Assembly (NCBI GenBank): GCA_002255925.1 | Contig: NKIH01000005.1 | Span: 310,001-374,000 of the forward strand | From: Burkholderiales bacterium PBB6 | Lineage (GTDB): Bacteria; Pseudomonadota; Gammaproteobacteria; Burkholderiales; Burkholderiaceae_C | Direction of reading: 5' to 3' | Length of the DNA: 64,000 bases | Shown here: in pieces, positions 50,075-59,462 of the stretch | Numbering within the stretch: position 1 is the first letter of the stretch | How the letters are laid out: every line of letters starts with the position of its first letter | Notes under the pieces: model-generated | What the model was told of the DNA's origin: nothing | What the model saw: the letters and a program-made list of their open reading frames with translations, nothing else | Database searches by the model: none | Position numbers and translations under genes: made by a program

Positions 50075-51295
50075 ATGAAGCTCGCCAGCCGCCTCGACCA
50101 CATCGATCCGTTCTACGTGATGGAGTGCGCCAAGGCGGCTTCCGCGCTGGCAGCCAGCCCGGCGTGTGACCCCGCCCAGGGCGGCTCGCCGATGATCTTC
50201 CTGAACATCGGTGAGCCCGACTTCACGGCGCCGCCGCTGGTGCAGGCCGCCGCGCAGGCAGCCCTGCAGGCCGGTCGCACGCAGTACACCGATGCCAACG
50301 GTCTGGCGCCGCTGCGCCAGGCGCTCTCGGACTGGTATGCCAGCCGTTTCGGCCTGACGATCGACGCCCGCCGCATCGTCATCACGGCCGGCGCATCGGC
50401 TGCCCTGCAACTCGCCTGCCTCGCCTTGTTCGAGACCGGCGACGAGGTGCTGATGCCCGACCCGTCCTACCCCTGCAACCGCCATTTCGTGGCGGCCACC
50501 GGGGCAACGGCCAGGTTGCTGCCCGCCGGCCCGGAGCACCGTTTCCAGCCTGACGCCGCCACCGTGGCCGCGGCCTGGACACCCGCCACGCGCGGCGTGG
50601 TGCTGGCATCGCCTTCGAACCCGACGGGCACCTCCATCACGGCGGAGGCGCTGGAAGCCATTGCCCGCACCGTGCGCGCGAACGGCGGCGTGACCATCGT
50701 CGACGAGATCTACCTCGGCCTCAGCTACGACGACCGCTTCAGCCAAAGCGCCCTGGCCCTGCCGGACGGACTGGGCGAGCAGGTCATCTCGGTCAACAGC
50801 TTCTCCAAGTACTTCAGCATGACGGGCTGGCGCCTGGGCTGGCTGGTGCTGCCCGAGCCGCTCGTGGGTGCAGTCGAGAAGTTGCAGCAGAACCTCTACA
50901 TCTGCGCGTCCACCGTGGCCCAGCACGCCGCGCTGGCCTGTTTCGCGCCCGAAAGCCTGGCTGAATACGAACGCCGCCGTGCCGCCTTCCGTGAACGACG
51001 CGATGTGGTGGTGCCCGCCCTCAATGCCATGGGCCTGACCGTGCCCGTGATGCCCGACGGCGCGTTCTACGCCTGGGCCGACTGCAGCGCCTTCAGCGAC
51101 GACAGCTGGCAGTTCTGCCTCGACGTCATGAACGAGGCCCATGTGGCCCTGACGCCCGGCAAGGACTTCGGCCCGGCTGCCGCCAGCCGCTATGTGCGCC
51201 TGTCCTTCGCCAACAGCCTGCCGCAGCTGGAAGAAGCCATGAACCGTCTGGCGCTGTTTTTGCGCCGCCGGGAATCCCAGGCCAGCCGGGCTTGA
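50075..51295 (+). CDS. Pyridoxal phosphate-dependent aminotransferase (class I/II)
   Basis: A 406-residue fold-type I aminotransferase. INIGEPDFTAPP-like FLNIGEPDFTAPPLVQAAAQ, then YTDANGLAPLRQALSDWYAS, VLASPSNPTGTSITAEALEA, the PLP Lys in SVNSFSKYFSMTGWRLGWLV, and the substrate Arg in SRYVRLSFANS. The sequence is in the alanine/aspartate-type group, and the amino donor cannot be specified. It has its own start after a terminator and is followed 11 bp later by a kinase gene, which may be co-transcribed. Confidence 0.9.
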   Translation: MKLASRLDHIDPFYVMECAKAASALAASPACDPAQGGSPMIFLNIGEPDFTAPPLVQAAAQAALQAGRTQYTDANGLAPLRQALSDWYASRFGLTIDARRIVITAGASAALQLACLALFETGDEVLMPDPSYPCNRHFVAATGATARLLPAGPEHRFQPDAATVAAAWTPATRGVVLASPSNPTGTSITAEALEAIARTVRANGGVTIVDEIYLGLSYDDRFSQSALALPDGLGEQVISVNSFSKYFSMTGWRLGWLVLPEPLVGAVEKLQQNLYICASTVAQHAALACFAPESLAEYERRRAAFRERRDVVVPALNAMGLTVPVMPDGAFYAWADCSAFSDDSWQFCLDVMNEAHVALTPGKDFGPAAASRYVRLSFANSLPQLEEAMNRLALFLRRRESQASRA

Positions 51296-51306
51296 GGAAG
51301 ATGGCC

Positions 51307-53016
51307 ATGTCTGCGTCAAGTTTGCGTATGCTCCAGTCCATGCGCTGGAAGCTGTTCGGTCGCAAGGTTGAGCAGAGCCCGCCGGAGGCGTCCGACTCGA
51401 CCTTCGAAGCCACCACTGTCGAAGACTTGCCGCCCGGCCTCGCAGAAGCCTTGGCGGCACATGGCGCTGCGCCCGTAGCCGGCCCGGGCGATGCCGGTGA
51501 CGCCGGCATCCACGCCAACAACATCATCGGCCACGTTGGCCGCTACGCACTCAAATCGGTGCTTGGCGAAGGTGGTCTCGGCACGGTGTACGCCGCCTGG
51601 GACCCGCTGCTGTCGCGCCCGGTGGCCGTCAAGACCCTGCACCTGCATCTGCACCTCGAGGCCGGCAAGACCGAAGCCCTCGACAGCATGATCCTGAACG
51701 AGGCGCGCGCCGCCGCGCGGCTGTCGCACCCCCACATCGTCACGGTGTTTGATGCCGGCCCGTCCGAGCAGGGCATCTACATCGCGATGGAACCCCTGCG
51801 GGGCCGCGATCTGCGTCACCTGCTGCAGGAAGGCTGGCGTCCGACGCCGGTCGAGGTCGCCCACCTGGTGCGTCGGGTGGCTGACGCCCTGGCCTATGCC
51901 CACGGCAAGGGCGTGGTGCACTGTGACATCAAGCCCGCCAACATCTTCATGGTCGGCCGCAAGCAGCCCAAGGTGCTGGACTTCGGCATTGCGCGGGTCA
52001 CCCAGCGTGATGGCTCGACCGTGGAAGGGCCGGTTGCCGGCTCACCGTATTACCTGGCACCGGAACAGGTGGTTGGTGGCCCGATCGACCGGCGTGTCGA
52101 CGTGTATTCGCTGGGCGTGGTGATGTACGAGTTGCTCACCGGACAGCGCGCGTTCACCGGCGCCACGGTCGACGACATCACCCGGGCCGTGCTGCAAGAC
52201 CCGACACCCGTGGCGCGCAAGGCCAATCCGAAGGTGCCTGCAGGTCTGTCGGCGATTGCCCGCCGCGCCATGGCTCGTGCACCGGAAGAGCGGCTGGCCT
52301 CTGCCCGACACCTCGCGTCCGAGCTGCGCCACTGGCTTGATTCCCAGGAAGCGCAGGCCTTGGGTGAGCCACCCAGCCAGCGTCGCGGCCGTTGGGCGGC
52401 ACTGTTGGGCGTAGCGTTGACGGCCGGGGCCGTGACCGCCGTGTGGATGAACGCCAGGTCGCGCACCGCCACCGACACCCCCCTGCAAGCTGCAGCCCCG
52501 GCCGCCAGTTCAGCATTGCTTGAGGCGTCGGCCCCGCTCGCCACGGCGAATGCCGGTGGCTTGGCCACCGACGAGCGCTGGGCCGACACGCCGGCCACGT
52601 CTGCCTCCGGCCCAGCCACTCTGAAGACCGACGCCGAACCACCTGCCTCGAGTGAGAAGCAGGCGGCCAAGGACAAAGACAAGGACAAGGCGCGTGATGC
52701 CGCCGCGACCGCGCGCACCGACAAGGAGCGCCGCAAGGCCGAGGCCAAGGACAAAAAAACGCGCGACGACGCCACAGCGGCCGACCGCCCTGCCGTGCCG
52801 GTGGCCACTGGCACGGTACAGTTGGCGATCAGCCCGTGGGGCGAGGTTGAGGTTGACGGCAAGCCCGCCGGCACCGCGCCACCCCTGACGCGTCTGACCC
52901 TGCCGGCCGGCCGTCACACCATCACCGTGCGCAATGGCGATTTCCCCGCCTATGTCCGCAACGTCGAGGTGGACCCCGACCACCCACTGCAAGTCAAACA
53001 CAGATTCGGTCCGTGA
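51307..53016 (+). CDS. Serine/threonine protein kinase with C-terminal PEGA domain (non-RD type)
   Basis: A 569-residue Hanks-type kinase. The kinase domain spans about residues 80-335: glycine loop LGEGGLGTVYAAWDP, Lys109 (VAVKTL), catalytic loop VVHCDIKPANIF with Cys206 in place of the usual Arg of HRD, DFG at 225, and AGSPYYLAPEQVVG. One membrane segment lies near 370-388. A Lys/Asp/Ala-rich linker (KDKDKDKARDAAATARTDK) follows, then a PEGA-like domain at about 495-565 (AISPWGEVEVDGKPAG). The PEGA part is likely periplasmic. I preferred the ATG at 51307, 8 bp after GAGGA, over one at 51301. The next gene, a lipoprotein, overlaps by four bases. Confidence 0.88.
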   Translation: MSASSLRMLQSMRWKLFGRKVEQSPPEASDSTFEATTVEDLPPGLAEALAAHGAAPVAGPGDAGDAGIHANNIIGHVGRYALKSVLGEGGLGTVYAAWDPLLSRPVAVKTLHLHLHLEAGKTEALDSMILNEARAAARLSHPHIVTVFDAGPSEQGIYIAMEPLRGRDLRHLLQEGWRPTPVEVAHLVRRVADALAYAHGKGVVHCDIKPANIFMVGRKQPKVLDFGIARVTQRDGSTVEGPVAGSPYYLAPEQVVGGPIDRRVDVYSLGVVMYELLTGQRAFTGATVDDITRAVLQDPTPVARKANPKVPAGLSAIARRAMARAPEERLASARHLASELRHWLDSQEAQALGEPPSQRRGRWAALLGVALTAGAVTAVWMNARSRTATDTPLQAAAPAASSALLEASAPLATANAGGLATDERWADTPATSASGPATLKTDAEPPASSEKQAAKDKDKDKARDAAATARTDKERRKAEAKDKKTRDDATAADRPAVPVATGTVQLAISPWGEVEVDGKPAGTAPPLTRLTLPAGRHTITVRNGDFPAYVRNVEVDPDHPLQVKHRFGP

Positions 53017-54982: not shown

Positions 54983-55939
54983 TTGAGCACGGTCCTTGAC
55001 ACCCTCAGCGTGCCGCGCGAAAGCCTGCGGCCGCCCAGCGCTGACCAGCCCCGCTTCGGCCTGCTGATGTCGCTGATGGCGCATGCCGGCCTGGTGACGG
55101 CGCTGACGCTGGGCGTGCAATGGCGAACCGAAGAGCCCGCTGGCGTGGTGGCCGAACTCTGGGCCGCCACGCCAGAGCTGGCCGCGCCGCGCACCGAGGC
55201 GCCGCCTGTTGAGCAGCCCGCGGTAGAGCCACCCCCGCCCCCGCCGCCAGTAGCCGAACGCAAACCGACGCCGCCACCGCCGCCGCCCGCAGTGGAGGAG
55301 CGCGAAGCCCAGATCGCCATCGAGAAGGCTGAAAAGGCCAAGCTCGAGAAGCAGCGGCTGGACGAAGAGCGCCAGGCCGCCGAGAAGAAGAAGGCGCTGG
55401 ACGACGCGCGCAAGAAGAAGGAAGAGGCACAAAAGCGGGAGCACGAACGCGAACGCGACGAGCAGGACCGCAAGTTGAAGGCCGAGAAAGCCGAGAAGGC
55501 AGACAAGGCCCAAAAGGCCGACAAGGAGCGCCGCGACAAGCTGGCCGCCGAGAAGGCCGACCAAGCCGCCAAGGCGGCGCGGGAAGACCAGATCCGCCGC
55601 ATGAACGCCCAGTTGGGTGGTGGCACCGGTGCGCCAGGCAGCACCGGCACCGCAGCGCGCGACGCTGGCCCGTCCGCCGGTTATGCCGGCCGCATCAAGG
55701 CCCGCATCAAGCCGAACATCGTGCTGACCGACGATATCGTCGGCAACCCGATCGCCGAAGTGGAAGTGCGGCTGGCCGCCGACGGCACCATCATCGGCCG
55801 CAAGATCTCCAAGACCAGCGGCTCGAAGGCCTGGGACGACACGGTGCTGCGCGCCATTGACCGCACCGCCATGCTGCCGCGTGACACCAACGGCAAGGTC
55901 GAGCCGGTGATGCTGATCAGCTTCAAGCCCGTCGAGTGA
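54983..55939 (+). CDS. tolA: Tol-Pal system protein TolA
   Basis: A 318-residue protein starting at a TTG (54983) with AAGGCGG upstream. One membrane segment lies near residues 25-45 (FGLLMSLMAHAGLVTALTLG). A Pro-rich stretch and a long Lys/Glu/Ala coiled coil follow (about 105-210, EKAEKAKLEKQRLDEERQAA). The C-terminal TolA/TonB-like domain ends at 318 (YAGRIKARIKPNIVLTDDIV, EVEVRLAADGTIIGRKISKT). Its last 17 bp overlap the convergent DoxX gene. The usual tolB and pal do not follow. The start is less certain than the rest. Confidence 0.9.
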   Translation: MSTVLDTLSVPRESLRPPSADQPRFGLLMSLMAHAGLVTALTLGVQWRTEEPAGVVAELWAATPELAAPRTEAPPVEQPAVEPPPPPPPVAERKPTPPPPPPAVEEREAQIAIEKAEKAKLEKQRLDEERQAAEKKKALDDARKKKEEAQKREHERERDEQDRKLKAEKAEKADKAQKADKERRDKLAAEKADQAAKAAREDQIRRMNAQLGGGTGAPGSTGTAARDAGPSAGYAGRIKARIKPNIVLTDDIVGNPIAEVEVRLAADGTIIGRKISKTSGSKAWDDTVLRAIDRTAMLPRDTNGKVEPVMLISFKPVE

Positions 55940-56396
55940 CGCCGCGGGCTGCCAGCCAGGCGTCCACCGACCACTGGCCCGGCCCCCACAGCAGCAGCGC
56001 CAGCAGCAGGCTGCCCCAGAACTGGTGCTGCTGCAGCGCGGCCGGGGCGATATCAGCCAGGCTGAGCACGGCGACGATGTTCAGCACACTCAGGCCCAAG
56101 GCACCAAAGCGCCCAAACAAGCCGAGCACCAGCAACACCGGCAACACCAGTTCACCGGCGGTGCCGGCCCAGGCGGCCAGCTCGGGCGGCAGCAGCGGCA
56201 CCTGATATTCGGACTCGAACAGCGCCAGCGTGGTGTCCCAATCGCGCAGCTTGGTCAGGCCGGAGGCAAAAAATACCTGCGCCACATACAGGCGGGCTGC
56301 CAGTTGCGCCAATGGCTGCAGGGCATCCAGGCGCGTGTGGCAACCGTGCACCAACGCATCAAAGCGGCTGCGTGTCCTCGTGATCAAAGCCATCAT
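55923..56396 (-). CDS. DoxX-family membrane protein (last gene of the bufferin operon)
   Basis: A 157-residue protein with four predicted membrane helices. AARLYVAQVFFASGLTKLRD is the DoxX start, then AWAGTAGELVLPVLLVLGLF, FGALGLSVLNIVAVLSLADI and QFWGSLLLALLLWGPGQWSV. DoxX proteins close DUF2282-DUF692-DUF2063 operons, where they are called BufD or HvfD-like, and may pass electrons or metal. I chose the ATG at 56396, which has GGAG six bases upstream; an ATG at 56402 abuts that site. It follows bufC by 22 bp and converges on tolA with a 17-bp overlap. Confidence 0.88.
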   Translation of the reverse strand: MMALITRTRSRFDALVHGCHTRLDALQPLAQLAARLYVAQVFFASGLTKLRDWDTTLALFESEYQVPLLPPELAAWAGTAGELVLPVLLVLGLFGRFGALGLSVLNIVAVLSLADIAPAALQQHQFWGSLLLALLLWGPGQWSVDAWLAARGVTRRA

Positions 56397-56418
56397 GGCC
56401 ATCTCCAGATTTGTATTT

Positions 56419-57282
56419 TCAGAGGGTCTCGGGCGCATTGCCGAGGCTGACCCGAACCAGCCAACCCGATTGCACGGCACGCACCAACCAGCCTTCGAAT
56501 GACAACGGTGGAGATTCGGCGACCGCGGATTCCAGGGCCAGCCCCAAGGCCCGGCCCTGCAGCAGCGATTGGGTGAAGGTGGCCTCTGGTGGCGTCAAAC
56601 GTTCAACAGCCACCTGCCAGCCGTCGCGCACCACCAGCACCGGCTCGGTGCGGACTTGCTGCAGCGCCTCACGCAGGGCCGCAAACGCCGGTGCGCGCTC
56701 GGCATGGCCCTCCGGCCATTGGTGGGCGGTCCAGATCAGGTGCAAAGGCCAGGGGCTGATCAGCACAGCACTGCCGGGTTGCAGATGCAGCAGCGCCTGC
56801 CCGGCCTCCGGGCTGGCGAGCAGCGCCAGGGTGTCGGGTTGAGGGGACGCATCCACCGCACGGCAGGCCTGGTGCACCAGCCATTCCAGCTCGGCCGTGC
56901 TGGCCAGCCACGGGGCGGCCTCCACCACCTCAGTTTGCTGGCTCAACCACGCGGGCAGCGCTTCGCCCCAACAGGCCAGGTCACCACGCACCGGCGGCGC
57001 GTCGCGCCAGAACTGCCGGGCGAGTGCGGCAAAGTCAGCTTCACCCAGCATTTGCTGCACCACCGGAAAGGCGCTGGCCAAGGCGCGCGGCGCCAGCGCC
57101 AGCGCATTGCGCCGGTAGGCCTTCAAACCCTCGTCGGGGGCCGCATCACCGCGCTGGCCCGGCCATGGGTCTATCTGGGCCAGCAACCACTGCGGCTCCG
57201 CTTCAGCGCGAATGGCCAGCAGCAAGGTCTGCTGCCGATGGGCTTCGGCGCGCAGCGCGTCGTCCGCAAGTGGGGGTGTCAA
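56419..57282 (-). CDS. bufC: DUF2063 partner protein (BufC/HvfC-like)
   Basis: A 287-residue protein of the DUF2063 family, the recognition partner of DUF692 oxidases. DEGLKAYRRNALALAPRALA near residue 50, then LASAFPVVQQMLGEADFAAL and ARQFWRDAPPVRGDLACWG are the signature N-terminal block, with a weaker C-terminal half. In related systems the DUF692/DUF2063 pair binds the leader of a DUF2282 peptide and oxidises its cysteines. The start is a TTG (57282) that overlaps the bufB stop by four bases (TTGA); the open frame extends upstream through bufB without family sequence. Confidence 0.85.
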   Translation of the reverse strand: MTPPLADDALRAEAHRQQTLLLAIRAEAEPQWLLAQIDPWPGQRGDAAPDEGLKAYRRNALALAPRALASAFPVVQQMLGEADFAALARQFWRDAPPVRGDLACWGEALPAWLSQQTEVVEAAPWLASTAELEWLVHQACRAVDASPQPDTLALLASPEAGQALLHLQPGSAVLISPWPLHLIWTAHQWPEGHAERAPAFAALREALQQVRTEPVLVVRDGWQVAVERLTPPEATFTQSLLQGRALGLALESAVAESPPLSFEGWLVRAVQSGWLVRVSLGNAPETL

Positions 57283-58226
57283 GCCAACACCCCTTGTGAC
57301 AGCAGGCGCTGCTGGATACGAGCGGCCTGGGCGGCCTCCCCCAGCAACACGTCGAACGACGGGATGTCGGTGTCCCATTCCACCAGCGTGGGCACGGGCC
57401 GACCCAGGCGGCGAACCGCATGCTCGTACACCTGCCACACCTCGTCGCGCACCAGCGAGCCGTGGTCATCAATCACCAGCGGTCCTTCGTCATTGAAGCC
57501 CGCCAGGTGCACCTCGCCAACGGTCGACAAATCCAGCTCGTCGATCCAGCCGCAAGCGGTGCGCACCGGGTCGCTCACGCCGCTGTTCAGGGCGTTCACC
57601 ACCAGGTTGTTCACGTCGAGCAGCACGCCACAACCGGCCTGCCGGCACAGGGCGTTGAAGAAGGCCGGCTCGGACATGTCCTGCTCTGCCCAGCGCACAC
57701 ACGCAGACAGATGCTCGATCAACAAAGGGCGCTTGAGGCGCTCCTGCACCTGCTGCACATGGCGCACCATCAGCCCGAGCGAGGCCTGGGTGAAGGCCAC
57801 CGGCAGCAAGTCACTGCCATGCACTGGCACCGTGTGCCCGGGCAGCTCTGCCCGCGCAAAACAGGCGTGGTCAGACACCCGCACCGGGCCGACCCGACCC
57901 ACCAGCGCCGCCAGCTGATCGAGATGCCAGGCATCCAGCCCGCAGGCGCTGCCCAGGGCCAAACCGACGCCGTGCAGGCTGATCGGATAGCGCTCGGCAG
58001 CCAGCTCCAGCGCGGCCAGGGCCGCACCGCCGGGCGCAAAGAAGTTCTCGCTGTGCACTTCGATGAAACCCAGCGCCGGCCGCTGCGCCAGCAAGGCCCG
58101 CTCATGCGGTTGGCGCCAGCCCACGCCCACTGAAGCCATGGCAGCCGCGTCAGGCAGCGCATGCACGGGCACGGCGGCGGGCGACGTGGTTGATGACAAC
58201 ATGGGCGTGGCGCTGGTCAGGGGCAA
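57279..58226 (-). CDS. bufB: DUF692 multinuclear iron oxidase (BufB/HvfB/MbnB-like)
   Basis: A 315-residue TIM-barrel-like protein of the DUF692 family, the same as methanobactin MbnB. Candidate metal ligands sit in FIEVHSENFFAPGG, LHGVGLALGS, RVSDHACFARAELPGHTVPV, LLIEHLSACV, GVLLDVNNLVVNALNSGVSD and EVHLAGFNDEGPLVIDDHG. Such enzymes oxidise peptide cysteines to heterocycles using iron and oxygen. It starts 16 bp after bufA and is coupled to bufC (TTGA). The ATG at 58226 is used; an in-frame ATG at 58202 is also possible. Confidence 0.9.
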   Translation of the reverse strand: MPLTSATPMLSSTTSPAAVPVHALPDAAAMASVGVGWRQPHERALLAQRPALGFIEVHSENFFAPGGAALAALELAAERYPISLHGVGLALGSACGLDAWHLDQLAALVGRVGPVRVSDHACFARAELPGHTVPVHGSDLLPVAFTQASLGLMVRHVQQVQERLKRPLLIEHLSACVRWAEQDMSEPAFFNALCRQAGCGVLLDVNNLVVNALNSGVSDPVRTACGWIDELDLSTVGEVHLAGFNDEGPLVIDDHGSLVRDEVWQVYEHAVRRLGRPVPTLVEWDTDIPSFDVLLGEAAQAARIQQRLLSQGVLA

Positions 58227-58242
58227 GGGCAGGGTCAGCCAG

Positions 58243-58518
58243 TCACTTCTTCATGGCCATCTTGGCTTCATCAGCCGTCATGCCCTTCATGTCCTTGCAG
58301 GTGCCCTTCGGGACGAACTTCCATTCGCCAGGTTCGTTGTCGCCCTTGGCCTGGCCGGCGCACGAGTGGCTGCCGCTCAGATTGGCACAGTCGTTCTGGC
58401 CGGCCTTGGCGATGCCGAAGCACTTCTCCTTGGCCTTGTCCTGCGCGCTGGCGCCTGAGGCCACGCCGAGTGCCAGAACGGCGGCCAGAGCGGAAGAGAT
58501 CATGAGTTGCTGAGACAT
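58243..58518 (-). CDS. bufA: DUF2282 bufferin-type precursor peptide (four cysteines)
   Basis: A 91-residue precursor. A signal peptide ([20 protein letters not shown], then SGASA) is followed by a core with four cysteines at positions 33, 44, 53 and 74: [26 protein letters not shown] and [10 protein letters not shown]. This [14 protein letters not shown] pattern is the DUF2282 family, whose members include copper-sequestering bufferins modified by DUF692/DUF2063 partners. A good AAGGAG site precedes the ATG. It is the first gene of the four-gene operon and divergent from the ECF sigma gene. Confidence 0.92.
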
Positions 58519-58677
58519 GGTGTGCTCCTTGAAGCGGTTTCAAACAGGTGGGATCAGCAGCGCGGCTGCCGGTTGGCTGCCACATCAGTTGGCCACATCG
58601 GGCGGCCACGAAGAGTCAGTCGACCGGCGATTGAATTCCTTACACTGCCACCCAATTCCATCACTTTCCGCCCATTC
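58519..58677. promoter_or_regulatory. Divergent promoter region of bufA and the ECF sigma gene
   Basis: A 159-bp gap that should hold both promoters. TTGAATTCCTTACACTGCC (58631-58649) is the most promoter-like stretch on the plus strand, with TACACT at 58640 as a possible -10. I could not identify a matching ECF-type -35/-10 pair shared by the two directions. Confidence 0.35.
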
Positions 58678-59244
58678 ATGAGCAACTTTCACCGCGATGT
58701 GGAGCAGCTGAGGCCGCAACTGATGCGCTACGCGCGCAGCCAGTTGCGCAACGATGCCTGGGCGGAAGACGCCGTATCGGAAACCCTGCTGGCCGCCATC
58801 GAGAAGCCGCAGACCTTCTCTGGCGGCTCACAGCTGAAGACCTGGCTCATCGGGATCCTCAAGCACAAGCTGGTGGATCAGCTGCGCCGCCACCGCCGTG
58901 AAGCCACCGTGCTGAGCGCCGATGACGACTGTGACCTCGACGGCCTGCTGTTTGATGACACCGGCCATTGGCGTGAAAGCCCGGTGGAGTGGGACGAGCA
59001 GCCCGAGCGCCGGCTTGGCCAGCAGCAATTCATGGCGGTGCTTGATGCCTGCGTCGAGCAACTGCCCGCCACGCAAGGTCGCGTCTTCATGATGCGTGAG
59101 TGGCTGGAGCTGGACACCGACGAAATCTGCAAGGAATTGGCCATCAGCTCGACCAACCTCTGGGTGCTGCTGCACCGTGCCCGACTGCGGCTGCGTGATT
59201 GCTTGCAGACCCACTGGTTCGGCACCGAGGGAGTCCGTCCATGA
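58678..59244 (+). CDS. ECF-type RNA polymerase sigma factor
   Basis: A 188-residue sigma-70 family ECF factor. Region 2 lies at about residues 10-75 (LMRYARSQLRNDAWAEDAVS, then FSGGSQLKTWLIGILKHKLV, the -10 binding helix). Region 4 lies at about 120-175 (LPATQGRVFMMREWLELDTD, then EICKELAISSTNLWVLLHRA, the -35 binding helix-turn-helix). Its ATG lies 159 bp from bufA in the opposite direction. It is coupled to a small zinc-type anti-sigma (ATGA overlap). Position suggests that it controls the bufferin operon, probably in response to metal or redox stress. Confidence 0.92.
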   Translation: MSNFHRDVEQLRPQLMRYARSQLRNDAWAEDAVSETLLAAIEKPQTFSGGSQLKTWLIGILKHKLVDQLRRHRREATVLSADDDCDLDGLLFDDTGHWRESPVEWDEQPERRLGQQQFMAVLDACVEQLPATQGRVFMMREWLELDTDEICKELAISSTNLWVLLHRARLRLRDCLQTHWFGTEGVRP

Positions 59245-59462
59245 GCTTGAAATTGATGTTGAACTGCCGCCAAGCCACCGCCCTGGTACTGCAAGCCGAA
59301 GACCGCAGCCTGGAATGGCCGGAGCGCCTGCGCCTGCGTCTTCACTTGATGATGTGCACGCCCTGCCCGCGTTTTGTACGCCAGGTGAAGCTGATGCGCG
59401 GCGCCGTTGGCCAGTGGCGCCAGTACGTGGACGAAGACCGGCCTGACGATCTGGGCCGCTAA
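59241..59462 (+). CDS. Small zinc-binding anti-sigma factor (ZAS-like, no membrane segment)
   Basis: A 73-residue protein. LNCRQATALVLQAEDRSLEW begins like zf-HC2 anti-sigma factors, and HLMMCTPC (His35, Cys39, Cys42) is the HX3CX2C zinc motif of ZAS proteins. No membrane segment is present, so it should be cytosolic and sense redox or zinc/copper directly. The ATG at 59241 overlaps the sigma-factor stop by four bases, the usual arrangement for a sigma and its antagonist. Confidence 0.85.
   Translation: MSLKLMLNCRQATALVLQAEDRSLEWPERLRLRLHLMMCTPCPRFVRQVKLMRGAVGQWRQYVDEDRPDDLGR

Follow-up and report, generated by a model that had tools for sequence, protein, structure and literature searches.

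A Buf1-type bufferin operon beside an ECF/ZAS gene pair in Burkholderiales bacterium PBB6, and a predicted promoter type shared with unlinked Buf2-type and msrPQ operons

Introduction

Which genes does the sigma factor encoded beside a bufferin operon control, and what releases it? The locus that raises this question lies at 55923-59462 of a 64,000-nucleotide stretch of the genome of Burkholderiales bacterium PBB6 (positions 310,001 to 374,000 of contig NKIH01000005.1, assembly GCA_002255925.1; hereafter the window), where a preliminary description made from the sequence alone had recognised a bufA-bufB-bufC-doxX operon and, divergent from it, genes for an extracytoplasmic function (ECF) sigma factor and a small anti-sigma factor. 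On the evidence presented here, and with a probability that we put at about 0.8, this Buf1-type operon is under a dedicated ECF factor held by a small cytosolic zinc-binding anti-sigma (ZAS) factor, and the same ECF factor also serves a Buf2-type operon and msrPQ elsewhere in the genome.

Results

Linkage of the bufferin operon to an ECF/ZAS pair

The bufA1-bufB-bufC-doxX operon runs on the minus strand from 58518 to 55923, and the genes for the ECF factor and the anti-sigma factor diverge from it on the plus strand, 159 bp from bufA (Table 1). Gene content, order and the intergenic gap are as first described, all six genes being present and matching their families; the models for DUF2282, MNIO, DUF2063, DoxX, the ECF regions and zf-HC2 all pass their Pfam cut-offs. 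Searching 84,980 species genomes with the ECF factor as query gave 253 relatives. Among the best 80, mostly Burkholderiales by record title, a small anti-sigma gene adjoins the ECF gene in 79 and bufA lies divergently within 1 kb in 56, so the linkage of ECF and bufA genes is more than chance. The start of the anti-sigma gene overlaps the stop of the ECF gene (ATGA), and its product carries the zinc motif C9-X25-H35-X3-C39-X2-C42, the four residues of which are kept in 80/80 aligned sequences (window included); this agrees with the ZAS motif C/H-X23-26-H-X3-C-X2-C as given in PMC7907618. The 188-residue ECF factor and the 73-residue HX3CX2C anti-sigma factor of the preliminary description thus stand, and its view of the latter as cytosolic is supported by the fact that no membrane segment was seen in the 73 residues; a solved-structure search with the anti-sigma factor gave no match.

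A conserved promoter motif before bufA1

In 56 of 57 divergent intergenic regions (the window and 56 loci), AGTGTAA is followed at a fixed distance, across a variable spacer, by CGAC; the sole exception (L073) has an extra gene between bufA and the ECF gene, and a looser form of the pattern turned up in 10 of 11,400 composition shuffles. The block AGTGTAAGGA is present in 51 of the 57 regions. Written as GTAAGG-N15/16-CGAC, the predicted bufA promoter has the same spacing as the published Neisseria sigma-E consensus, GTMAGBWTT-N12/13-CGTCTAAH (quoted for meningococci as GTAAGGTT; PMC2893595), and falls within the Neisseria-type pattern GTMAGB-N15/16-CG[TA]C, the -10 element being CGAC in the window versus CGTC in Neisseria. 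Such a conserved promoter of apparent ECF type lends support to the dedicated ECF/anti-sigma switch that had been proposed for this locus.

The same predicted promoter type at two unlinked operons

The 4.4-Mb genome holds 25 GTAAG-N16/17-CGA sites, ten of them GTAAGG, and three of these ten end in CGAC. The three GTAAGG-N15/16-CGAC sites precede bufA1, an unlinked Buf2-type operon and msrPQ, the last two having escaped the preliminary description. Re-examination covered the ten GTAAGG sites; the genome also holds other TGTAAGGA matches and GTAAG sites lacking GG, and this list of three targets may not be complete. A whole-genome control with the reversed pattern gave 213 matches against the 25 real ones, but reversed patterns differ in base-step frequencies and are therefore a poor null for such a search; the evidence for the sites comes from their location and from the tests on upstream regions described below.

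At the second bufferin locus, a gene for a peptide with Cys-Lys motifs, preceded at 91 nt by the promoter site, is followed by a gene for a 560-aa MNIO-DUF2063 fusion. No Pfam family matched this peptide, so the name Buf2 rests on the Cys-Lys motifs and the setting. A landscape study finds sigma genes among Buf1 clusters and none among those of Buf2 (PMC12452194), a distribution with which control of Buf2 in trans would fit. MNIO frames of a length similar to that of the fusion were seen in several other genomes of the family. The third site, about 60 nt upstream of msrP, reads CGTAAGG-N16-CGAC.

Table 1. Features of the bufferin locus and of the two unlinked operons (window positions unless a contig is given)
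Feature	Position	Strand	Description
bufA1	58243..58518	-	91-aa Buf1 (DUF2282) bufferin precursor; PF10048 87.5 bits (cut-off 22.4)
bufB	57279..58226	-	MNIO (DUF692) maturase; PF05114 292.5 bits; frame as given runs from TTG to stop
bufC	56419..57282	-	DUF2063 partner protein, TTG start; PF09836 64 bits
doxX	55923..56402	-	DoxX/HvfX-like membrane protein, final operon gene; PF07681 69.4 bits
ECF sigma factor gene (ecf)	58678-59244	+	188 aa; TIGR02943 235.5 bits (cut-off 162.2); PRK12520 281.2 bits (cut-off 255)
ZAS anti-sigma gene	59241-59462	+	73 aa; NF052368 74.8 bits (cut-off 50); zf-HC2 25 (cut-off 22.2)
Predicted bufA promoter, -35 element	58638..58644	-	TGTAAGG; conserved motif in divergent loci
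Predicted bufA promoter, -10 element	58619..58622	-	CGAC, 15 nt after TGTAAGG
Candidate -10 of ecf housekeeping promoter	58641..58646	+	TACACT; overlaps the buf -35
Second bufferin locus (Buf2-type)	C24:557982-560004 (L128 2983-5005)		peptide gene (C24:557982), then MNIO-DUF2063 fusion
msrPQ	C24:863184-864789 (L130 185-1790)		msrP, NF003767 479 bits (cut-off 207); msrQ next, NF003831 162 bits (cut-off 130)

Association of the motif with the ECF factor across the family

We sampled 150 genomes of one family (141 genera), 95 with MNIO genes and 132 with msrP. About 1.5 kb upstream of 128 of the 141 MNIO matches was searched, 13 partial or second-piece matches being omitted and three of the regions being shortened by contig ends; precursors were typed as Buf1 or Buf2 by tblastn with both precursors of the window genome. 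Four ECF matches below 100 bits were left out, among them the only match in each of G098, G101 and G103, which consequently count as genomes without the ECF factor. The strict motif, TGTAAG-N15-17-CGAC, occurs in 66/128 MNIO regions and in 0/128 of the reversed sequences, and it is commoner where the genome has an ECF ortholog (52/82 versus 14/46; Fisher p = 4.4e-4). A looser motif, GTAAG-N16/17-CGA[CT] lying no more than 350 nt from where the precursor gene starts, precedes 27/43 Buf1 operons beside an ECF ortholog, 9/15 Buf1 operons with the ortholog elsewhere in the genome and 8/26 without it; for unlinked Buf2 operons in ECF genomes the count is 17/20, and for Buf2 operons without ECF 3/5. 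Genomes with only a distant ECF match gave 0/4 (Buf1) and 2/2 (Buf2), and operons with an untyped precursor 1/13. On the opposite strand the looser pattern has 28 matches, of which 27 fall inside the coding sequence of the neighbouring ECF gene.

The association is stronger at msrP, where the search covered the 400 nt preceding the gene in 110 of the 134 matches: the 30 that have loci, then the 80 ranked after them, with the 24 of lowest rank omitted. Here the looser motif is found in 42/48 ECF-bearing genomes, the exceptions being G009, G025, G031, G082, G099 and G130, versus 15/62 elsewhere (Fisher p = 1.5e-11), and in 0/110 regions on the opposite strand or reversed. Outside the ECF genomes, it is present in 7/9 genomes in which an MNIO operon carries the motif and no ECF ortholog occurs, and in 8/53 of the others.

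Overlap with a candidate promoter of the ecf gene

The predicted buf -35 shares bases with TACACT, the candidate -10 element of the ecf gene (Table 1), and the conserved block AGTGTAAGGA might accordingly do no more than serve ecf as its promoter, with the buf genes transcribed from a housekeeping promoter or one under a copper sensor. Indeed, among 24 ECF loci without a divergent bufA within 1 kb, TACACT is retained upstream of the ECF gene in 10 and TAnACT in 13 (TAnACT arises in 1.6% of shuffles). However, the GGA part is lost in these same loci (TCCTTACACT in 0/24), and the two-part motif recurs in ECF genomes at unlinked Buf2 operons (17/20) and at msrP (42/48); we therefore reject the motif as an ecf promoter only, an explanation to which we give very little credence. 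With the motif read as the buf promoter, its -35 covers bases of the candidate ecf -10, and an active ECF factor at bufA should for that reason hinder transcription of ecf; from this arrangement we infer competition, that is, a brake on ecf, and not positive autoregulation.

Two promoter dialects

A second form of the promoter, GTAACC-N15-17-CGA, which is of the Caulobacter sigma-F type, is present in 18/128 MNIO regions, none of which has both dialects. In seven motif-negative genomes of GTAACC type, picked by an ECF-like match beside bufA, an NrsF gene lies no more than about 2 kb from the MNIO match in 7/7, and no NrsF match was obtained in the window genome or in ten motif-bearing genomes without the ECF factor. 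GTAACC also occurs in 8/110 msrP regions, including those of six of the seven genomes checked for NrsF. The dialects go together within genomes: Buf1 and Buf2 agree in 19/20 genomes typed at both (17 GTAAG, 2 GTAACC, 1 mixed; permutation p 0.013 over all 22 pairs), and buf and msrP in 45/46 unambiguous genomes (38 GTAAG, 7 GTAACC; G127 is discordant, and G027, mixed at its buf operons, was set aside). A sigma-F/NrsF system is rejected for the window, given the absence of an NrsF match in the genome, the 26% identity of its ECF factor to RpoQ, and a different -35 (the window site being GTAAGG-N15-CGAC, not GTAACC-N16-CGAA). Taken further, we consider it a little likelier true than false that a single cytosolic ECF/ZAS switch serves the three unlinked operons (Buf1, Buf2 and msrPQ) through one dialect, as a small regulon that protects the envelope, that in relatives these operons have been rewired jointly to sigma-F/NrsF by a change of two bases from GG to CC in the -35, and that in divergent loci activation of buf brakes ecf.

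Evidence at odds with control by the neighbouring ECF factor

Several observations weigh against the assignment of these promoters to the ECF factor of the window. The site in the gonococcal locus is GTCAGTTTT...CGTC and not GTAAGG, the msrP site of the window genome has C before GTAAGG, and TACACT lacks a good -35 partner. The genomes are related, yet the tests treat them as independent, and the Buf2 counts given above, taken by themselves, do not bear on the link to ECF presence. Moreover, in 16 of the 43 ECF-adjacent Buf1 operons the looser motif is missing from the 350 nt next to bufA: in four of them (L188, L207, L209, L256) a GTAAG site lies 1.06-1.13 kb upstream, with a TlpA-like redoxin frame between this site and bufA in the first three; L206, L240 and L222 (1.06 kb upstream) have TGTAAT instead; and nine have neither. 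Lastly, at least ten genomes of the family (G005, G046, G047, G074, G091, G098, G101, G103, G112, G116) carry the motif ahead of an MNIO operon and show no ECF ortholog of at least 200 bits, no NrsF and no above-cut-off ZAS. G110 is an eleventh motif-bearing genome without a good ortholog of this ECF factor, the NrsF checks having covered the other ten; msrP was sampled in nine of these eleven, and seven have the motif there.

Because the GTAAG-type motif occurs in these ten genomes, another factor probably reads it too. The same ten genomes speak for the rival explanation that some other ECF factor, and not the neighbour, reads these promoters. We find this improbable, since the motif is commoner in ECF genomes both at msrP (42/48 versus 15/62) and at MNIO operons (52/82 versus 14/46), and since a 37.5%-identical Neisseria ECF factor in the same set-up has the same promoter type.

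The bufferin operon and its surroundings

Buf1 precursors of the window type recur among the relatives found, and cysteines 33, 44, 53 and 74 of BufA are kept in 59/59 aligned sequences (the window and 58 loci), which bears out the four-cysteine DUF2282 peptide first described; its signal peptide was recognised by eye only. For bufB, translation more likely begins from the ATG at 58202 than from the TTG of the listed frame. The best NCBIfam model for the protein is MNIO_BufB at 288.8 bits, under the equivalog cut-off of 310, and the closest solved structure is 3BWW (E 3.4e-38). The TTGA coupling of bufB and bufC is confirmed by their coordinates, TTG at 57282-57280 overlapping TGA at 57281-57279. 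BufC reaches 32.8 bits with NCBIfam HvfC, far under the cut-off of 142, and had no match in the solved-structure search; DoxX reaches 64.5 bits with HvfX and so stays below the cut-off of 80. As genes for an MNIO enzyme and a DUF2063 partner adjoin the DUF2282 precursor gene, the operon is of the Buf1 type, in line with the preliminary reading, and a copper-binding, thiooxazole-bearing product is predicted. The accompanying remark that DUF692/DUF2063 pairs act on bufferin and methanobactin-type peptides is loose for methanobactin, because the methanobactin partner protein is MbnC.

A TlpA-like redoxin frame (FWST[DG]CAVCR or close) was observed upstream of bufA1 in L073, L188, L200, L203, L207 and L209, and a GTAAG-type site precedes it in L188, L203, L207 and L209. 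In L027, the ECF/ZAS pair is kept together with, as judged by eye, neighbours from the window (ybgC-like, TolA-like and a pilus-type ATPase), and no buf gene was found in its 9.7 kb; either the buf genes were lost or the sigma pair arrived first. Elsewhere in the window, 51292-53016 holds a serine/threonine-kinase-like frame whose linker is rich in lysine and alanine and whose end is PEGA-like, again by eye.

Discussion

Relation to known systems

A close parallel is sigma-E (rpoE/Ecf) with MseR in Neisseria (operon NMB2140-2145 / NGO1948-1943), for which PMC2893595 describes an ECF factor and small cytosolic ZAS over an MNIO/DoxX operon and msrAB, with a very small regulon; the promoter (GTMAGBWTT-CGTC) has the spacing found in the window. 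The ECF factors are 37.5% identical, and the anti-sigma factors align over 51 residues at 25%. In Neisseria, however, there is one co-directional, autoregulated operon, whereas the window has divergent genes and a Buf1 precursor, with a Buf2-type operon and msrPQ as further predicted targets. No DUF2282 match was found in the gonococcal locus examined, and the Neisseria peptide product is assigned to the EGKCG group (PMC13097082). RpoE2-HrsE of Haemophilus influenzae likewise combines a 67-aa cytosolic ZAS with a distant MNIO (doxX/hvf) operon and msrAB that need the ECF factor (PMC7907618); there, msrAB adjoins and the precursor is oxazolin (EGKCG), not Buf1 or Buf2.

The gigPABT-rpoQ-rsqA locus of Cupriavidus metallidurans has the same four-gene DUF2282 operon and a divergent ECF/anti-sigma pair (PMC10304878, PMC11022561), but its RpoQ is only the 26%-identical relative already mentioned and its RsqA is an NrsF protein (PF06532). 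These two papers report that a gig promoter was not found and describe RpoQ's control of gig as undemonstrated. In the C. metallidurans locus we found TGTAACC-N16-CGA facing both gigP and rpoQ (L260 4170 (-) and 4203 (+)); these sites are candidate sigma-F-type promoters for the two genes and place gig with the GTAACC dialect. In Caulobacter, one ECF factor (sigma-F, with NrsF) acts through one promoter type on two MNIO operons and a YedY/Oxidored_molyb gene (CC3254-3257, CC2907-2905 and CC2748; YedY belongs to the MsrP family), an architecture close to the one predicted here, but with a membrane anti-sigma factor (DUF1109/NrsF) and the promoter GTAACC-N16-CGAA (PMC3511200).

Proposed mechanism and the nature of the signal

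By analogy with MseR and HrsE (PMC2893595, PMC7907618), the ZAS protein would hold the ECF factor at rest and would release it when its C-H-C-C zinc site is attacked, thiol oxidation being the likeliest insult and copper a possible one. The freed factor is predicted to transcribe bufABC-doxX from TGTAAGG-N15-CGAC and, in trans, the unlinked Buf2-type operon and msrPQ from promoters of the same kind. BufBC would oxidise precursor cysteines, with 5-thiooxazoles as the probable product, and after export the peptide would bind excess periplasmic copper, as described for relatives (PMC12452194, PMC13097082). MsrPQ would repair oxidised methionines in the periplasm and, at bufA, the active ECF factor would hinder ecf transcription and thereby act as a brake. 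Work in E. coli has examined MsrPQ during copper stress (PMC9302797); this and the periplasmic repair function of MsrPQ would fit one envelope-protection programme.

The preliminary description took the peptide to be metal-inducible. As regards the signal, redox appears at least as likely as metal, since msrPQ shares the promoter and the Haemophilus HrsE/RpoE2 system has been linked to HOCl and H2O2 (PMC7907618). If the switch instead sensed metal, binding or displacement of Cu(I) or Zn(II) at C-H-C-C would take the place of thiol oxidation; the induction of bufferin-type (gig) operons by copper or gold (PMC5413113, PMC10304878) and the copper-binding peptide products of relatives would then be readily accommodated. 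The presence of msrPQ in the predicted regulon and the association of a Haemophilus anti-sigma factor of this kind with HOCl and H2O2 (PMC7907618) make such a sensor unlikely in our judgement, though a serious contender, the more so as Neisseria MseR is reported not to respond to oxidants (PMC2893595).

Significance

Prior work had described bufferins, MNIO operons and msrAB under ECF/ZAS control (in Neisseria and Haemophilus), the Caulobacter sigma-F regulon and the divergent gig-rpoQ arrangement. In our literature search, we found no report of an ECF/ZAS pair of this type together with Buf1, of the promoter, of unlinked Buf2 operons and msrPQ as targets or of two dialects; the original bufferin paper fell outside that search and may hold more. 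What is new, as the sequence comparisons suggest, is a shared switch for parts of known kinds. A promoter in two dialects that are tied to two types of anti-sigma factor yields single-base predictions, and the question of an oxidant or copper signal becomes directly testable. Buf2 operons and periplasmic methionine repair would be placed in one predicted regulon.

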